Shown here piece after piece: positions 43,717-51,948 of a stretch of DNA of 64,000 nt. The position numbers and the translations under genes are program-made. The notes beneath the pieces were generated by a model, which saw only the letters and a list, made by a program, of their open reading frames with translations, ran no database searches and was not told the origin of the DNA. The DNA is from Pseudoxanthomonas sp. PXM01 (GTDB lineage Bacteria; Pseudomonadota; Gammaproteobacteria; Xanthomonadales; Xanthomonadaceae). The stretch lies in NCBI RefSeq assembly GCF_014851815.1, contig NZ_JACVAJ010000002.1, forward strand, positions 434,001 through 498,000, given 5' to 3'. How positions within the stretch are numbered: the stretch's first letter is position 1; every line of letters begins with the position of its first letter.

Positions 43717-44733
43717 ATGAAAGCCGTCGCCCTCACCCGCTACCTGCCAATCGACGATCCGCAGTCACTGGTCGATGTCGAACTCGAGACACCCACCGCC
43801 ACCGGCCACGACATCCTCGTGCGCGTGGAAGCCGTGTCGGTGAATCCGGTCGACACCAAAGTCCGCTCGCCCAAGCCGCAGGTCGAAGCGCAGCCGAAGG
43901 TGCTGGGCTACGACGCCGCCGGCGTGGTCGAAGCGGTCGGCGATGCCGTCACCCGCTTCAAGCCCGGCGATACCGTGTACTACGCCGGCGACATCACCCG
44001 TCCCGGCAGCAATGCGCAGTTCCAGCTGGCCGACGAACGCATCGTCGGCCGCAAGCCCGCCTCGCTGGATTTCGCGCAGGCCGCCGCGCTGCCGCTGACC
44101 ACGATCACCGCCTGGGAGCTCCTGTTCGACCGCATGCCGTACGTCATCGATGGCGGCGGCAACGGCAAGTCGCTGCTGGTGATCGCCGGTGCCGGCGGCG
44201 TCGGCTCGATCGCGATCCAGCTGGCCAAGCGCGCGGGCTTCACCGTCGTTGCGACCGCCTCGCGCCACGACACCATCGACTGGTGCAAGGCGCTCGGCGC
44301 CGACCACGTGATCAACCATCGCGAACCGCTCGGCCCGCAGCTGAAGGCGCTGGGCTTCGACACCATCGACGCGGCGCTCAATCTCGCCGACACCGACCGC
44401 TACTGGACCGAGCTGGGCGAGTTGCTGTCGCCGCTCGGCCATGTCGGCCTGATCGTCGAACCGCGCGGCGAGCTGCGCATCGGCGACCCCTACAAGGCCA
44501 AGAGCATCGGCATCCACTGGGAAATGATGTTCGCCCGCCCGCGCTTCCGCACCGCCGACATGGGCGAACAGGGCGCACTGCTGGATCGCGTCGCCGACCT
44601 GATCGATGCCGGTCAGCTGCGCGGCACGCTCACCGACACGTTGTCACCGATCGACGCGGCGAACCTGCGCGAAGCACATCGCCGTCTCGAATCCGGCACC
44701 ACCATCGGCAAGCTGGTGCTCGCCGGCTGGTAA
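43717..44733 (+). CDS. Zinc-binding-type alcohol dehydrogenase family (quinone oxidoreductase-like)
   Basis: 338 residues of the medium-chain dehydrogenase superfamily. The N-terminal GroES-like domain has VEAVSVNPVDTKVRSPKPQ and VLGYDAAGVVEAVGDAVTRF. The NADPH-binding Rossmann motif is VIAGAGGVGSIAIQLAKRAG. The cysteine and histidine zinc ligands of true alcohol dehydrogenases are missing, as in the quinone oxidoreductase branch (TIGR02817 type). It likely reduces quinones or enones. A good ribosome site (GAGGATCCACC) precedes the ATG. A REP-like pair follows the stop. Confidence 0.9.
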   Translation: MKAVALTRYLPIDDPQSLVDVELETPTATGHDILVRVEAVSVNPVDTKVRSPKPQVEAQPKVLGYDAAGVVEAVGDAVTRFKPGDTVYYAGDITRPGSNAQFQLADERIVGRKPASLDFAQAAALPLTTITAWELLFDRMPYVIDGGGNGKSLLVIAGAGGVGSIAIQLAKRAGFTVVATASRHDTIDWCKALGADHVINHREPLGPQLKALGFDTIDAALNLADTDRYWTELGELLSPLGHVGLIVEPRGELRIGDPYKAKSIGIHWEMMFARPRFRTADMGEQGALLDRVADLIDAGQLRGTLTDTLSPIDAANLREAHRRLESGTTIGKLVLAGW

Positions 44734-44746
44734 AGGCGAAAAGAGC

Positions 44747-44830
44747 TGTGGGGGCGACGTAAGTCGCGACTGGACGGCGGAGACATCTTCATCTCCTGAC
44801 GACTCCATCGCGACTTACGTCGCTCCCACA
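44747..44830. repeat. REP-like inverted pair, copy 4
   Basis: Arms at 44747-44770 (TGTGGGGGCGACGTAAGTCG and four more bases) and 44808-44830 are reverse complements with one change in the head and a 37-base spacer. They lie between the oxidoreductase gene and the converging SMC gene. Confidence 0.88.
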
Positions 44831-44843
44831 GCATTATGTTGCC

Positions 44844-47651
44844 TTACGCGGCTGCGGCATCCCCGCTGCGGTCGCGTTTCAGCACCGCGACCGGCTCGGC
44901 CCACGTGCTCGCCGCGCGGCGCTTGCTGGTCGCCAGCACCAGGTCGGACGGCTCGAACACGTTGACGTTGTGCGTGATCGGCGTGGTCAGGATGTACTGC
45001 GCATCGGTCGAGCGCAGGAAGCGGCCGACCTTCTCGATGTTGGCGACGTCGAGGTGCGCGAACGGTTCGTCGATGAAGACGAAGCCGCCCGGTTGCTCCT
45101 CGTCGCGCAGCAGCGCCACCAGCAGCAGCAGCGACTTCATGACCTGCTGGCCACCCGAGGCTTCGCCGTCGTCCAGGCCGATCCAGCCCTTGCGGTCGAA
45201 GTCGAAGCGCACGGTCAGGCCGGCCTGCGCCAGCGCCGTATCCTCGTTCACCAGTTCGGGCAGTTCCGCGTCCACGCCGATGCCGGCGAGATCGCCCAGG
45301 GCGGCCAGGTTGCGCTTGTAGCGACGTACCGTAGCGCGCAGCACGTTGATGTACGCGCCACGCGCCTCCTCGGTCAGACGACGGGCACGATGCAGATGCG
45401 TTTCGCGCTTGCCGATGGCGGCTTCCAATCCCGCATGGTCGGCGCCGAACTTGTCGCGCAGGGCGACGCAGCCTTCGTCCTCGACATAACCACCGCGTGC
45501 GATGCGCTCATCGATGCGCTCGAGTTCACGGCGCACGGCACTGCTGCTTTCGTATTCCTCGCGTGCCGCGCGCAGCACGGCGGCGCTGCGCCACGCCGCC
45601 GGCATCTGCGCACGACGGCGACGGAAGTCGACGATCCGCTGCGCCAGCGCCAGACGTTCCTGCCCGATCTGCTGGCCACGCTCCTTCAGCTCGCCGGCCA
45701 GCGCCTTGATTTCGCCGGCACGGCTGGCGGCCGCGATGCCTTCCGCCTTGTCGAGCGCTTCCAGACCATCCAGCCGCTGACGTGCCTCTGCCAGTGCCGC
45801 GGCCGCCTCGGCGGCGGCATCCGCCAAGGCAGGCAGGCGCTCGGCGGCATCGGCGAACTCCGCCGCGCGCGTGACCAGTTCCTGACCGGCGTCCAGACCG
45901 AGCAGGCGCGACTGCGCCCCGTCCAGCTGTCGGCGCAAGGTCGCCAGGGCGTCCTCGCGAACCTGCGCACGGTCCTGCAGCATGGCCTGCTCCGACCGCA
46001 GCGATGCCAGATGCGCCTGACGCGCACCGGCGCCGAAGTGATGCGCGCCACCGCCGATGTGGCGGCCACCGCGCTGTTCGCGCAGGTAGCCCTTGGCGGT
46101 GATCCAGTCCTGGCCCTTCGACAAGCGATGACCGGCCTCGACGTCGGCCACGCGCTGGATGCGGTCCAGATGGCGCGGCAGCCACGCGGGCGGATCGTCG
46201 GAGAAGCGCACGACTTCGAGCAGCGAACCCCGGGTCGCCTTCTCGACGGGTGCGCGGTCGGCGACGACGAAATGCCGGTACTGCAGCTGCTCGCCGAGGC
46301 GCCACGCCTCGCGCGCGTCCTTCGGATGTTCCAGTAGCACCAGGTGACGGTACGGCGCCAGCACCGCTTCCACGGCCGTCGCCCAGTCGGGATCGACCAC
46401 GTCGACCAGCTCGGTCAGTACCCGATGCGCAATGCCCTGCCGGTCCAGCGCAGCGCGGAAGTCGCGCTCGAACGGTTCGATCACCCGGCCACCGCCGCTG
46501 AGCGCAGCGACCTGCGCGACGATCTCGCCGGTTCGCTGGCGGTCACGCTCGGCTTCCAGCTTCAGTTCGGCCTGGCGACGGCGACCGTCCTCCAGTTCAC
46601 GACTCAGGGCGTCGACATCGGCGCCGCCGCGTTCGGCCTGCAGCTTCGCCAGTTCATCATGGCGGCGCACCAGCGATTCGGCATCGCGCGCGTGGTCGCG
46701 CGCCTGGGTGAAGGCGGCTTCGGCCTGCTTGAGCTGCGCGCGCGTGTCGACCAGATCGGAACCGGCGCGATCGCGCTGCAACTGGGCGGCCACTTCCTGC
46801 GCCAGCAGGCTGGCATGCGCGCGTTCCCGCTCACGCAGCGCGCGGCGCAGGCCAGTCAGGCGCGGTCGCGCGCCTTCGACGGTGGCGCGCAGGTCGGCGA
46901 GTTCCACCTTGGGCGCGATCTCGGTCTGCAGACGGTTGCGCTGCGAGCGCAGCGACAGGCCATCCTCGAACGAGCGCACGTCGGCGCGTGCGGACTCCAG
47001 CTTCACGTGCAACTCGGCCAAGCCCTGCTGCAGCTGACCGATCTCCTTCTCCACGTCGAACTGCTCGCTGCGGGCGCGCTGGTAGTCGTCCAGCACCGCC
47101 TTGTCTTCGAACACGTCGAACACCAGTTGCAGCAGCTCACGCGGCGACAACTGGCACAGCTTGTCGGTCGCGCCCTGCTCCAGCGTCAGCACGCGGCAGA
47201 TCGCGCGGCTCAGACCGGCACCCGCCAGGCGCACGCGGTAGTCGCGCACGCCCAGCCAATCGCCGCCCTGGTCCAGCGTTTCGACCGGCACGTCGCCGGC
47301 GACGATCTGGTAGTCGCGCGACCAGTCGCCCCCGCGCTTGCGAATGCGGCAGGCGATGGTGACCTGCTCGTCCATGTGCGGGAAGAACGCGCGCTTGCCG
47401 CGGCGGTCGACCGGATTGCTGACCACCGCGCGCAGCCAGGCGTACGGCTTGCCGTTGTGGCGCAGGTAGGTCTTGTAGTCGCGCGCCATGTCGCGGTCGT
47501 CGATGGCGAGCAGCGTGCGCAGCGCATCAAGCAGGGTGGTCTTGCCGGACCCGTTCGGCCCGACCACGGTGATGACCGACGCGTCCAGCGGCAGCGTGTA
47601 GCGCTGCCAGTAGTCCCAGTGGACGACTTCCAGGCTGCGGAACTCAAACAT
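44844..47651 (-). CDS. SMC-type ATPase of an MksBEF/Wadjet-like complex (MksB/JetC-like)
   Basis: 935 residues. The N-terminal head has Walker [17 protein letters not shown] (residues 31-38 core). Coiled coil covers about 185-385, a hinge-like globular region about 400-545 (VLTELVDVVDPDWATAVEAV, KGQDWITAKGYLREQRGG), and a second coiled coil about 545-785. The C-terminal head has signature SGGQQVMKS (832-840), Walker B GFVFIDEPFAHLD (856-868) and the late PITHNVN histidine. This is the plan of SMC/MukB ATPases with arms of about 200 residues each, well below the 1486 residues of MukB. The start overlaps the KITE-subunit gene by eight bases. It likely binds and loops DNA with the two upstream-encoded subunits. 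Confidence 0.85.
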   Translation of the reverse strand: MFEFRSLEVVHWDYWQRYTLPLDASVITVVGPNGSGKTTLLDALRTLLAIDDRDMARDYKTYLRHNGKPYAWLRAVVSNPVDRRGKRAFFPHMDEQVTIACRIRKRGGDWSRDYQIVAGDVPVETLDQGGDWLGVRDYRVRLAGAGLSRAICRVLTLEQGATDKLCQLSPRELLQLVFDVFEDKAVLDDYQRARSEQFDVEKEIGQLQQGLAELHVKLESARADVRSFEDGLSLRSQRNRLQTEIAPKVELADLRATVEGARPRLTGLRRALRERERAHASLLAQEVAAQLQRDRAGSDLVDTRAQLKQAEAAFTQARDHARDAESLVRRHDELAKLQAERGGADVDALSRELEDGRRRQAELKLEAERDRQRTGEIVAQVAALSGGGRVIEPFERDFRAALDRQGIAHRVLTELVDVVDPDWATAVEAVLAPYRHLVLLEHPKDAREAWRLGEQLQYRHFVVADRAPVEKATRGSLLEVVRFSDDPPAWLPRHLDRIQRVADVEAGHRLSKGQDWITAKGYLREQRGGRHIGGGAHHFGAGARQAHLASLRSEQAMLQDRAQVREDALATLRRQLDGAQSRLLGLDAGQELVTRAAEFADAAERLPALADAAAEAAAALAEARQRLDGLEALDKAEGIAAASRAGEIKALAGELKERGQQIGQERLALAQRIVDFRRRRAQMPAAWRSAAVLRAAREEYESSSAVRRELERIDERIARGGYVEDEGCVALRDKFGADHAGLEAAIGKRETHLHRARRLTEEARGAYINVLRATVRRYKRNLAALGDLAGIGVDAELPELVNEDTALAQAGLTVRFDFDRKGWIGLDDGEASGGQQVMKSLLLLVALLRDEEQPGGFVFIDEPFAHLDVANIEKVGRFLRSTDAQYILTTPITHNVNVFEPSDLVLATSKRRAASTWAEPVAVLKRDRSGDAAAA

Positions 47652-48351
47652 CGGCCGGCTCCTCGTTCACTTCGTCCAGGCTGTCGTCCGCGGGCAACGC
47701 AGGGGCATTCGCCTGCGAGGCGCGCGCCTCCTCGATCACGTACGCCAGCGCACCGTCCATCACGCGGCTGGCGATGCGTTCGTAGTCGAACGCCAGGTCG
47801 AGCAGCGGGCCTTCCTGGATGCGCTCGCGGCGGCGCACGATGAAGCCGTGCCGCTGCAGCGTGCCGAGATTCATCTGCAAACGCCCCTTGCCACCGAGCT
47901 TGTCGGCGAAGTCGGCCAGCAGCGTGCGCTCGTTGATCGGTTCGATCAGTTCGGACCCGACCGGCACCGGCTTCAGCTCGGCGAACATCTGCTCCTGCTC
48001 GTGCTGGCGATCGCCCTCCTGGCGTGCGATCTGGCGTTGGCGTTTCGGCAGCACCAGCAGCGCCCACAGCACGACCAGCAGCGCGATGGTGTCGCGGCCG
48101 AGCGACAGGTTGCTGGCAGCCCAGGCGTCGCCATGGCCGAACACCTCGCTCTCCTGCGCGCGCGCGATGCCGACGGCGACGTGGGCGGCGTAGGGGTGTT
48201 CGAGCAGGCGCAGGCCGGCGGCAGCGAGGCGGCGGTCGAGGTCGTCGCGCAGTTCGGCGTCGACAAGCACCTGGCGCACGGCGCGGTCGTCGCGCGGCAG
48301 CCAGCGCTCGGCCAGCAGCCGCGCGATCAGGGAAGCGATGGGGTCATTCAT
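47644..48351 (-). CDS. KITE subunit of the SMC complex (MksE/JetB/MukE-like)
   Basis: 235 residues. The central and C-terminal parts form winged-helix modules (LLADFADKLGGKGRLQMNLG, TLQRHGFIVRRRERIQEG) resembling MukE/JetB. A hydrophobic segment (TIALLVVLWALLVLPKRQRQ, residues 87-106) is probably a buried helix, because no other membrane features exist. The acidic C-terminus ends DDSLDEVNEEPADV. It overlaps the kleisin gene by four bases upstream and the SMC gene by eight bases downstream, so the three proteins are made together. Recognition rests mainly on position, size and winged-helix character. Confidence 0.75.
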   Translation of the reverse strand: MNDPIASLIARLLAERWLPRDDRAVRQVLVDAELRDDLDRRLAAAGLRLLEHPYAAHVAVGIARAQESEVFGHGDAWAASNLSLGRDTIALLVVLWALLVLPKRQRQIARQEGDRQHEQEQMFAELKPVPVGSELIEPINERTLLADFADKLGGKGRLQMNLGTLQRHGFIVRRRERIQEGPLLDLAFDYERIASRVMDGALAYVIEEARASQANAPALPADDSLDEVNEEPADV

Positions 48352-49667
48352 GCGGTACGGGCTTTCTTCTTGCGGGAAGGCGCAGGCGCAGCCTGCGTCT
48401 CTGGGGTCTGCGGCAGCAGGCGGCCGCGGCTCATGTAGGCCACGCCGGCGCGCTGGACGGATTCGAATTCGGCATCGACATGCCACTGCATCGGCAGCTG
48501 CGCCAGCGAGGCCGCCACGCCGTTGCGGTTCTCCGCACCGGCATCACCGATCAGGCCGAGCAGCGACAGGCGGTAGGCGCTGACCGCGAAGCCGTCCTGC
48601 GGCACCCAGTCCGACAGCGGCGCTTCGGTGTCGAGCGCGGCGAGCTGGTCGAACCATCGTTCGGCATGGCCGTAGTCGTTCTGCACGACCGGCGCCTGCG
48701 TCTCGGTCGGCGCGGCCTGCGACGGCGGCAGCGAGGCGTCGTCCTGCGCGGCACGTTCGCGTTCGACCAGTTCGTATTCGGCCACGTCCAGTGCGATCGG
48801 CCCCAGCGCGAACGCCGGCTGCGGCATGCGCGCCAGCACGTCGTCGGCCAGCGCGGTCAGTGCCGCGGTGTCGAGCACGCGCAAATAGCGGTTGACGTCG
48901 GATGACGACAATCCGCTCGCGCCGAGGTGCACGCGGTGGCGGTCCAGCTGGTTCAGCGCGCGCTGGAACACCGACGCCTGCCGCAGCAGCGCACTCTGCG
49001 CGCGGCCGATCTGCTGCGCGACGCGGTGGGTGGCGGTATCGAGGTCGCCGTCGGCGGCGATATCGCGGATCAGCTCGGTGCCCTTCTCCACCCATTGCCA
49101 GACCGATTGCAGGGTGTCGGCGGCGCGCTGGATGCGGTGTTCCGAACCGCTGAGCACGGCCTGGTCGAAGTCCTCGCGCAGCTCGTTCAATCGCGACAGC
49201 AGGTGTTGCAGGTCGTCCGCCTTGACCCGGCCGACGGCCTGGCCGGCGGCGAGCTGGGCGGTGACGTAGGCGAGTTCGTCGCCCTCGCGCTGGAACTGCA
49301 GCAGCAGGCCGATCGAGGCCAGCGCCTGGCGGCCGACCGGGCTGATGCGGTAGCGCTGGCTGGCGGCGTCCCACAGCAGCAGGCCGTTCTCGCGCAGGCG
49401 GCCGAGCACGGTGTCGAACTTGACCGGGTCCAGGTAGGCGAACTGGTCACGCAGCTCCTGCGGCGACCAGTCCGGCGCTTCGCCGCGCTCGCCGAGGGTG
49501 CGCAGGACCAGCAGGCGCACCATGACGCTCTCCTCGCCGCCATGGAACAGCGTCGAGAAGGCCCGCAGCAGGTCACGGGCGTTGAGCAGGGGGTGGAGGT
49601 CCGGCAGGTCGGCGGCGGCGAAGCCGGCGCGCAGGTAGTCGTGCAGGGGCGGTGAGGCGGTGTCCAT
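48348..49667 (-). CDS. Kleisin subunit of the SMC complex (MksF/JetA/MukF-like)
   Basis: 439 residues. The N-terminal 150 residues contain a winged helix (ELRDQFAYLDPVKFDTVLGR, LRENGLLLWDAASQRYRISP). A long helical middle follows (DDLQHLLSRLNELREDFDQA, AADTLQSVWQWVEKGTELIR), and the C-terminal part (LDVAEYELVERERAAQ, YGHAERWFDQLAALDTEAPL, SAYRLSLLGLIGDAG) should contact the ATPase heads. The basic end is APSRKKKARTA. This matches the size and plan of MksF/JetA. It is the first gene of the operon, divergent from the FadH-type gene across 170 bases. Confidence 0.78.
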   Translation of the reverse strand: MDTASPPLHDYLRAGFAAADLPDLHPLLNARDLLRAFSTLFHGGEESVMVRLLVLRTLGERGEAPDWSPQELRDQFAYLDPVKFDTVLGRLRENGLLLWDAASQRYRISPVGRQALASIGLLLQFQREGDELAYVTAQLAAGQAVGRVKADDLQHLLSRLNELREDFDQAVLSGSEHRIQRAADTLQSVWQWVEKGTELIRDIAADGDLDTATHRVAQQIGRAQSALLRQASVFQRALNQLDRHRVHLGASGLSSSDVNRYLRVLDTAALTALADDVLARMPQPAFALGPIALDVAEYELVERERAAQDDASLPPSQAAPTETQAPVVQNDYGHAERWFDQLAALDTEAPLSDWVPQDGFAVSAYRLSLLGLIGDAGAENRNGVAASLAQLPMQWHVDAEFESVQRAGVAYMSRGRLLPQTPETQAAPAPSRKKKARTA

Positions 49668-49669
49668 GA

Positions 49670-51948
<2,279 letters not shown>

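Follow-up and report, generated by a model that had tools for sequence, protein, structure and literature searches.

A three-gene Wadjet-group (MksBEF-type) SMC operon of Pseudoxanthomonas without a JetD gene, probably with a nuclease-independent role

Wadjet and MukBEF complexes are described in the available text of two papers (PMC10586767, PMC7617805) as assemblies of SMC, kleisin and KITE subunits that entrap DNA and extrude loops in an ATP-driven manner, JetD being the Wadjet subunit that cuts small circles. How such a machine is to be understood when its nuclease gene is missing is the question raised by an operon at positions 44,844 to 49,667 of a 64,000-nucleotide (nt) stretch of Pseudoxanthomonas sp. 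PXM01 (assembly GCF_014851815.1, contig NZ_JACVAJ010000002.1, positions 434,001 to 498,000 of the forward strand), hereafter called the window. The evidence assembled below favours, with moderate confidence, an SMC complex of the Wadjet group (MksBEF/JetABC-like) which most likely descends from one that had JetD, the nuclease having since been lost, and which most likely serves as an accessory chromosome condensin. The operon thus probably encodes a JetD-less complex of the MksBEF type with a role that is independent of a nuclease.

The operon is encoded on the minus strand and begins with a kleisin-like gene in the position of JetA/MksF/MukF (48348..49667; an open reading frame (ORF) of 439 aa), followed by a KITE-like gene in the position of JetB/MksE/MukE (47644..48351; 235 aa) and the gene for an SMC ATPase of the JetC/MksB type (44844..47651; 935 aa). 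The KITE-like gene overlaps the kleisin-like gene by 4 nt and the SMC gene by 8 nt, as claimed in the original prediction, which had been made from the sequence and its ORFs, and these exact overlaps recurred in 41 of the 59 three-gene loci, the window's own locus (L001) counted. All three genes were present in 59/61 loci (L001–L061), the other two (L054 and L058) being truncated by contig ends and yielding the SMC gene alone. With their lengths of 935, 439 and 235 aa, their consecutive and co-directional arrangement and the presence of the SMC motifs, the genes lie within the limits given for the Wadjet group in the available text of PMC7617805 (SMC >890 aa with Walker motifs, kleisin 400–1200 aa, KITE 150–800 aa, consecutive co-directional genes). 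Scans for promoters and terminators found nothing.

The SMC protein contains a complete Walker A motif (GPNGSGKTT, residues 31–39), signature (SGGQQ, 832–836) and Walker B motif (FVFIDEP, 857–863), all of them predicted before and unchanged across 17 aligned sequences. It scored 62.5 bits against Pfam SMC_N (cut-off 40), its top PADLOC model was JetC1 (78.6 bits, E 7.9e-23), and an hhalign comparison with type I JetC (98.6%, E 5.5e-16, 243 columns) spanned the central part of the protein, residues 363–610. By these sequence comparisons the protein is assigned to the JetC/MksB group. Membership in three other groups was rejected: the Smc-ScpAB equivalog SMC_prok_B gave 106.5 bits (cut-off 567), the 1486-position MukB model NF003422 gave 19.3 bits (cut-off 699) for a protein of just 935 aa, and, for SbcC/Rad50, the SbcC-type Walker B model PF13558 gave 24.7 bits, under its cut-off of 27, with no CxxC motif in the 935 residues.

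The two smaller proteins were characterized by their predicted structures. The kleisin model (mean predicted local distance difference test score 64.9) comprises a winged helix on the N-terminal side, a helical middle and a C-terminal domain, and MukF occupied the top rows in both Foldseek and VIA-align; predicted-fold matches to JetABC were also obtained. With modest confidence, the kleisin fold points to MukF and the KITE fold to JetB. Searches with the kleisin and KITE sequence profiles against PDB, Pfam, PADLOC and NCBIfam returned no convincing match (the kleisin profile reached a winged-helix regulator at E 0.007, which was not considered convincing), and neither did hhalign comparisons of the kleisin with JetA and the KITE with JetB, for which the best P was 0.042 (KITE). 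Both proteins have diverged too far for sequence profiles.

In agreement with the original prediction for the operon, no JetD was detected in the window by tblastn. None was detected in the genome by PF09983 (JetD_C) or by the operon family's own JetD profile. A DUF2399 search of the genome, which is a weak test because it also missed the JetD of genome G033, gave a single match of 18.8 bits (cut-off 23.4) inside a 1119-aa frame. In eight related loci (L030, L032, L037, L044, L048, L053, L058 and L075), by contrast with the window, the end of the SMC gene is overlapped, by 1 or 4 nt, by a JetD-family gene of 398–420 aa. PADLOC JetD1 matched all five of those scanned (L030, L032, L044, L048, L075; the best E of each protein between 2.6e-14 and 4.2e-9), and Pfam DUF2399 matched three of the five at E <0.001, exceeding the cut-off in two of these three, with no match in the remaining two. 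An alignment of the relatives' JetD proteins to type I JetD covered 292 columns (94.2%, E 1.1e-7). At positions 272, 321 and 323 of the L044 protein, E, D and D are present in 8/8 JetD sequences; we take these residues to be the catalytic acids of the Toprim domain. The family genomes G003, G013, G057, G061 and G065, which had no match to this operon's kleisin, weakly matched the JetD profile in its C-terminal part (29–45 bits) and perhaps carry other Wadjet systems.

The distribution of JetD was followed in 43 loci (L019–L061), all assigned to Lysobacterales by title or lineage and obtained from a scan of genome contigs; locus sets overlap in part, as for L048 and L070. The closest SMC in this set, from Pseudoxanthomonas sp. 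PXM02, is 99% identical. By tblastn, the JetD gene was present in 7 of the 43 loci and lacking in 36. Among the 18 genomes of the family sample that carry the operon, G020 and G033 had a JetD match, on the kleisin's contig and a few kilobases from it, and 16 had none at E 0.001, two of these (G014 and G094) being less than 85% complete. Four operon-bearing genomes lay outside the family: JetD is present in G269 and absent from G408 and G463, and G502 gave only a 13-bit match far away.

The site of the operon is conserved. A dehydrogenase-type gene (43717..44733, plus strand) converges on it and a fadH-type gene (49694..51880, plus strand) diverges from it; both names are those of the original prediction, and both genes are regarded as flanks outside the complex. 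Across the 43 loci, the dehydrogenase-type flank was found 3' of the operon in 28, the fadH-type flank 5' of it in 35, and both in 28. In JetD-bearing relatives at the same site, JetD occupies the place between SMC stop codon and dehydrogenase-type gene, which are separated there by 1243 (L030), 1358 (L032), 1994 (L037) or 1268 nt (L044). In the window this junction measures 110 nt (44734..44843); the shared downstream DNA starts about 110 nt past the SMC gene and matches L044 at 80% over 1 kb. A JetD remnant was sought in the 110-nt junction by tblastn, and none was found. Since some relatives at the same site carry JetD, its absence here probably reflects loss. A different fourth subunit in its stead was considered and rejected: the genes at JetD's place in JetD-less relatives vary and, judged by eye, look like ordinary neighbours (kinase-like, elongation-factor-like, methyltransferase-like and LysE-like). 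The position after the SMC gene was variable in L033, L034, L035, L041 and L051, in L038, L040, L042, L043, L045 and L050, and in L056 and L061.

On the SMC tree (a quick tree of 51 rows, with long-branch warnings), at least six changes of JetD state are forced by the starred branches, and 22 losses are required if JetD was already present at the root and was never acquired again. The JetD junction is alike in 8/8 loci, the A-B-C-D order is the same in three type I Wadjet systems, and on a Variovorax plasmid there is a 4-nt overlap between JetD and a partial, related SMC gene; together these observations favour an ancestral JetD. L037 and L044 form a pair in the SMC tree that the JetD tree rejects (p-AU, the P value of the approximately unbiased test, 0.03), which suggests possible acquisition of some JetD genes, and the deepest sampled relatives (L071–L073) are without JetD. 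Both results count against the history preferred here and, together with the weak resolution of most branches of the JetD tree, against a history of pure loss. Loss is the simplest reading of the JetD pattern, and a mixture with some re-acquisition is possible.

The genes left behind are under purifying selection in the JetD-less relatives, with the motor kept as such. The ratio of nonsynonymous to synonymous substitution rates (dN/dS) in 15 JetD-less pairs was 0.019–0.118 for SMC, 0.018–0.261 for kleisin and 0–0.423 for KITE, the four KITE values above 0.2 all coming from KITE proteins of 265–332 aa. In five pairs of a JetD-bearing and a JetD-less locus, the SMC values were 0.069–0.354, with L053/L039 highest. 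Faster evolution of JetD-bearing operons, suspected from branch lengths as an arms-race signature, was unsupported by relative-rate contrasts: nine contrasts, some with shared members, revealed no consistent difference. More amino-acid changes were found on the JetD-bearing side in L053 and L044 (significant; synonymous changes were raised in L044 too) and on the JetD-less side in L049 (synonymous changes raised too), and six contrasts were even; among 12 control pairs without JetD on either side, one (L040/L043) was uneven.

The SMC dimer, kleisin and KITE proteins would form a ring that extrudes DNA loops through ATP hydrolysis; lacking a nuclease that a small circle could trigger, the complex would compact or segregate DNA. 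Its most likely role would be that of an accessory chromosome condensin alongside Smc-ScpAB, placed first because of the analogy with P. aeruginosa MksBEF. As described, the latter resembles the present case in having three subunits and in coexisting with SMC in one cell (available text of PMC7485682), and the available text of PMC10586767 presents it as active in organising the chromosome and as a likely product of JetD loss. Type I Wadjet (JetABCD/MksBEFG) shares with this operon family the kleisin-KITE-SMC(-JetD) order, the short overlaps, an SMC nearest to JetC1 and a JetD-family nuclease (in eight related loci, JetD1 in five scanned). The window differs from it in the missing JetD, in a kleisin and KITE unrecognised by the JetA and JetB profiles, and in an SMC of 935 aa as against ORFs of 1131–1195 aa in three type I loci. 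MukBEF of enterobacteria is similar in that the window's kleisin fold matches MukF first and in the lack of a nuclease subunit (available text of PMC7617805), but the window's SMC is far shorter than the 1486-position MukB model and its genome also contains ScpA. Smc-ScpAB has the same SMC-kleisin-KITE composition, whereas the SMC_prok_B score is under the cut-off and the ScpA gene of the window genome is encoded separately, elsewhere.

Several observations weigh against this interpretation. A PDB search ranked Smc and Rad50 heads above JetC, whose match covered about 50 residues, and the SMC_prok_B score exceeds that of any JetC model. The original assignment to the Wadjet/MksBEF type stood as regards the JetC/MksB-like SMC and the relatives' operon with its adjacent JetD; the kleisin and KITE identities are suggested by modest-confidence predicted folds and gene order, with no confirmation from sequence profiles. 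The operon is also patchily distributed: the kleisin was found in 18/119 genomes of the family sample and 6/398 of the phylum sample, and empty sites occur in the window's own genus and family. Given this patchiness and the empty sites, an accessory or defence role fits as well as a housekeeping one. When the SMC profile was run against 369 genomes of the class, matches at E 1e-20 came from the window genome and G269 alone, which is weak evidence of rarity because at most two candidates per genome were scored. At the empty sites of L121, L122 and L124, the ends of the flank matches lie 675, 140 and 60 nt apart with no operon sequence between them; L123 and L126 have other long ORFs between the flanks, and in L125, L127 and L128 the dehydrogenase flank was not found in the stretch examined. 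The fadH-type gene was sought in ten operon-less genomes of the family and found in nine.

The main rival, which we consider unlikely, is a retained defence role in which plasmids or other circular DNA are compacted, sequestered or mis-segregated but not cut. It would accommodate the patchy presence and the empty sites, the probable origin in a four-gene Wadjet system and the distinct Wadjet I at the same site of a congener (described below), but the chromosomal position is conserved, with both flanks in 28/43 loci, and the kleisin had no tblastn match in a plasmid collection. Improbable is partnership with a nuclease whose gene lies at another genomic location, an option raised by the original prediction. 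The open and constrained state of the three genes in JetD-less relatives and the sub-threshold DUF2399 match in the window genome could be read in its favour. That match lies below the cut-off within a 1119-aa frame, however, the JetD matches of G020 and G033 are close to the kleisin, and the window genome yielded no JetD_C and no family JetD-profile match, so that supply from elsewhere finds no support as regards JetD-family nucleases, other nuclease families not having been searched for. A decaying remnant of a defence system is disfavoured as the most doubtful reading of all: the nuclease is gone, the entire operon is absent in many relatives and JetD is truncated in the congener's Wadjet I, but the frames are open, the ATPase motifs invariant and the dN/dS values well below 1, and most contrasts show no rate rise in the JetD-less partner, except for L049, where synonymous changes were raised too.

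The congener in question (G117, of the window's genus) carries between the same flanks, in opposite orientation, a distinct canonical Wadjet I (L120:2114-8202) with matches to JetA1 (E 8.4e-235), JetB1 (E 2.4e-97) and JetC1 (1637.7 bits). Its JetD1 gene is truncated, covering model positions 2–110 of 394, about the first quarter. Two different Wadjet-group operons, both without a full JetD, are therefore found at one site. We tentatively propose a wider picture, which we hold less firmly than the accessory-condensin role: in Lysobacteraceae and Rhodanobacteraceae, an armed Wadjet may have been disarmed repeatedly by JetD loss, mostly at one chromosomal position and with the motor strongly constrained, and the armed and disarmed near-relatives, together with the second Wadjet I with truncated JetD at the same site, would then record recent independent conversions of an anti-plasmid SMC complex into a nuclease-free DNA organiser.

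Nuclease-free SMC complexes are already known (MukBEF; P. aeruginosa MksBEF), and a review proposes from distant comparisons that the MukBEF and MksBEF condensins arose from a plasmid-defence machine (available text of PMC10586767); related literature includes PMC10123090 and PMC10512200. Among the matches listed, wording on JetD loss or lack was found only in the accessible part of PMC10586767, and no literature on Wadjet in Lysobacter or Pseudoxanthomonas or on MksBEF in Xanthomonas was found in a search whose coverage excluded most subscription papers. What stands out in the present case is that the nuclease is repeatedly absent at a single chromosomal site, of which the record is unusually clear. 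Close relatives with and without the nuclease (L032 versus L033 and L035; L030 versus L029 and L036) allow its effect and its absence to be tested on a nearly identical motor, and provide a natural setting for examining how a chromosome organiser may arise from a defence machine.

Fragments of distantly related systems were seen on two Variovorax plasmids. That of strain RA8 (L099:6511-9062) carries the C-terminal part of a distant SMC followed by JetD, adjoining IS1071 transposase genes; that of strain WDL1 (L100:8025-9488) carries the N-terminal part of a distant SMC by IS1071 transposase genes, with a JetD match about 27 kb away.

Beside the operon, within the 110-nt junction, lies the predicted REP-like inverted pair, whose 25-nt arms (44745–44769 and 44808–44832) are 96% complementary. 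Its 18-base core, GAGCGACGTAAGTCGCGA, has 89 exact copies in the genome (43 forward, 46 reverse), as against 0 for the reversed control pattern; copies in the window lie at 44808, 18304, 18265, 15467 and 15350, and the repeat often occurs as inverted pairs. Because the core is dispersed through the genome, the pair is regarded as a dispersed repeat and not as part of the operon. On the other side, the fadH-type ORF may have its true start downstream of the first ATG: in nine relatives the match begins between query residues 10 and 55, at residue 27 or later in eight of them.

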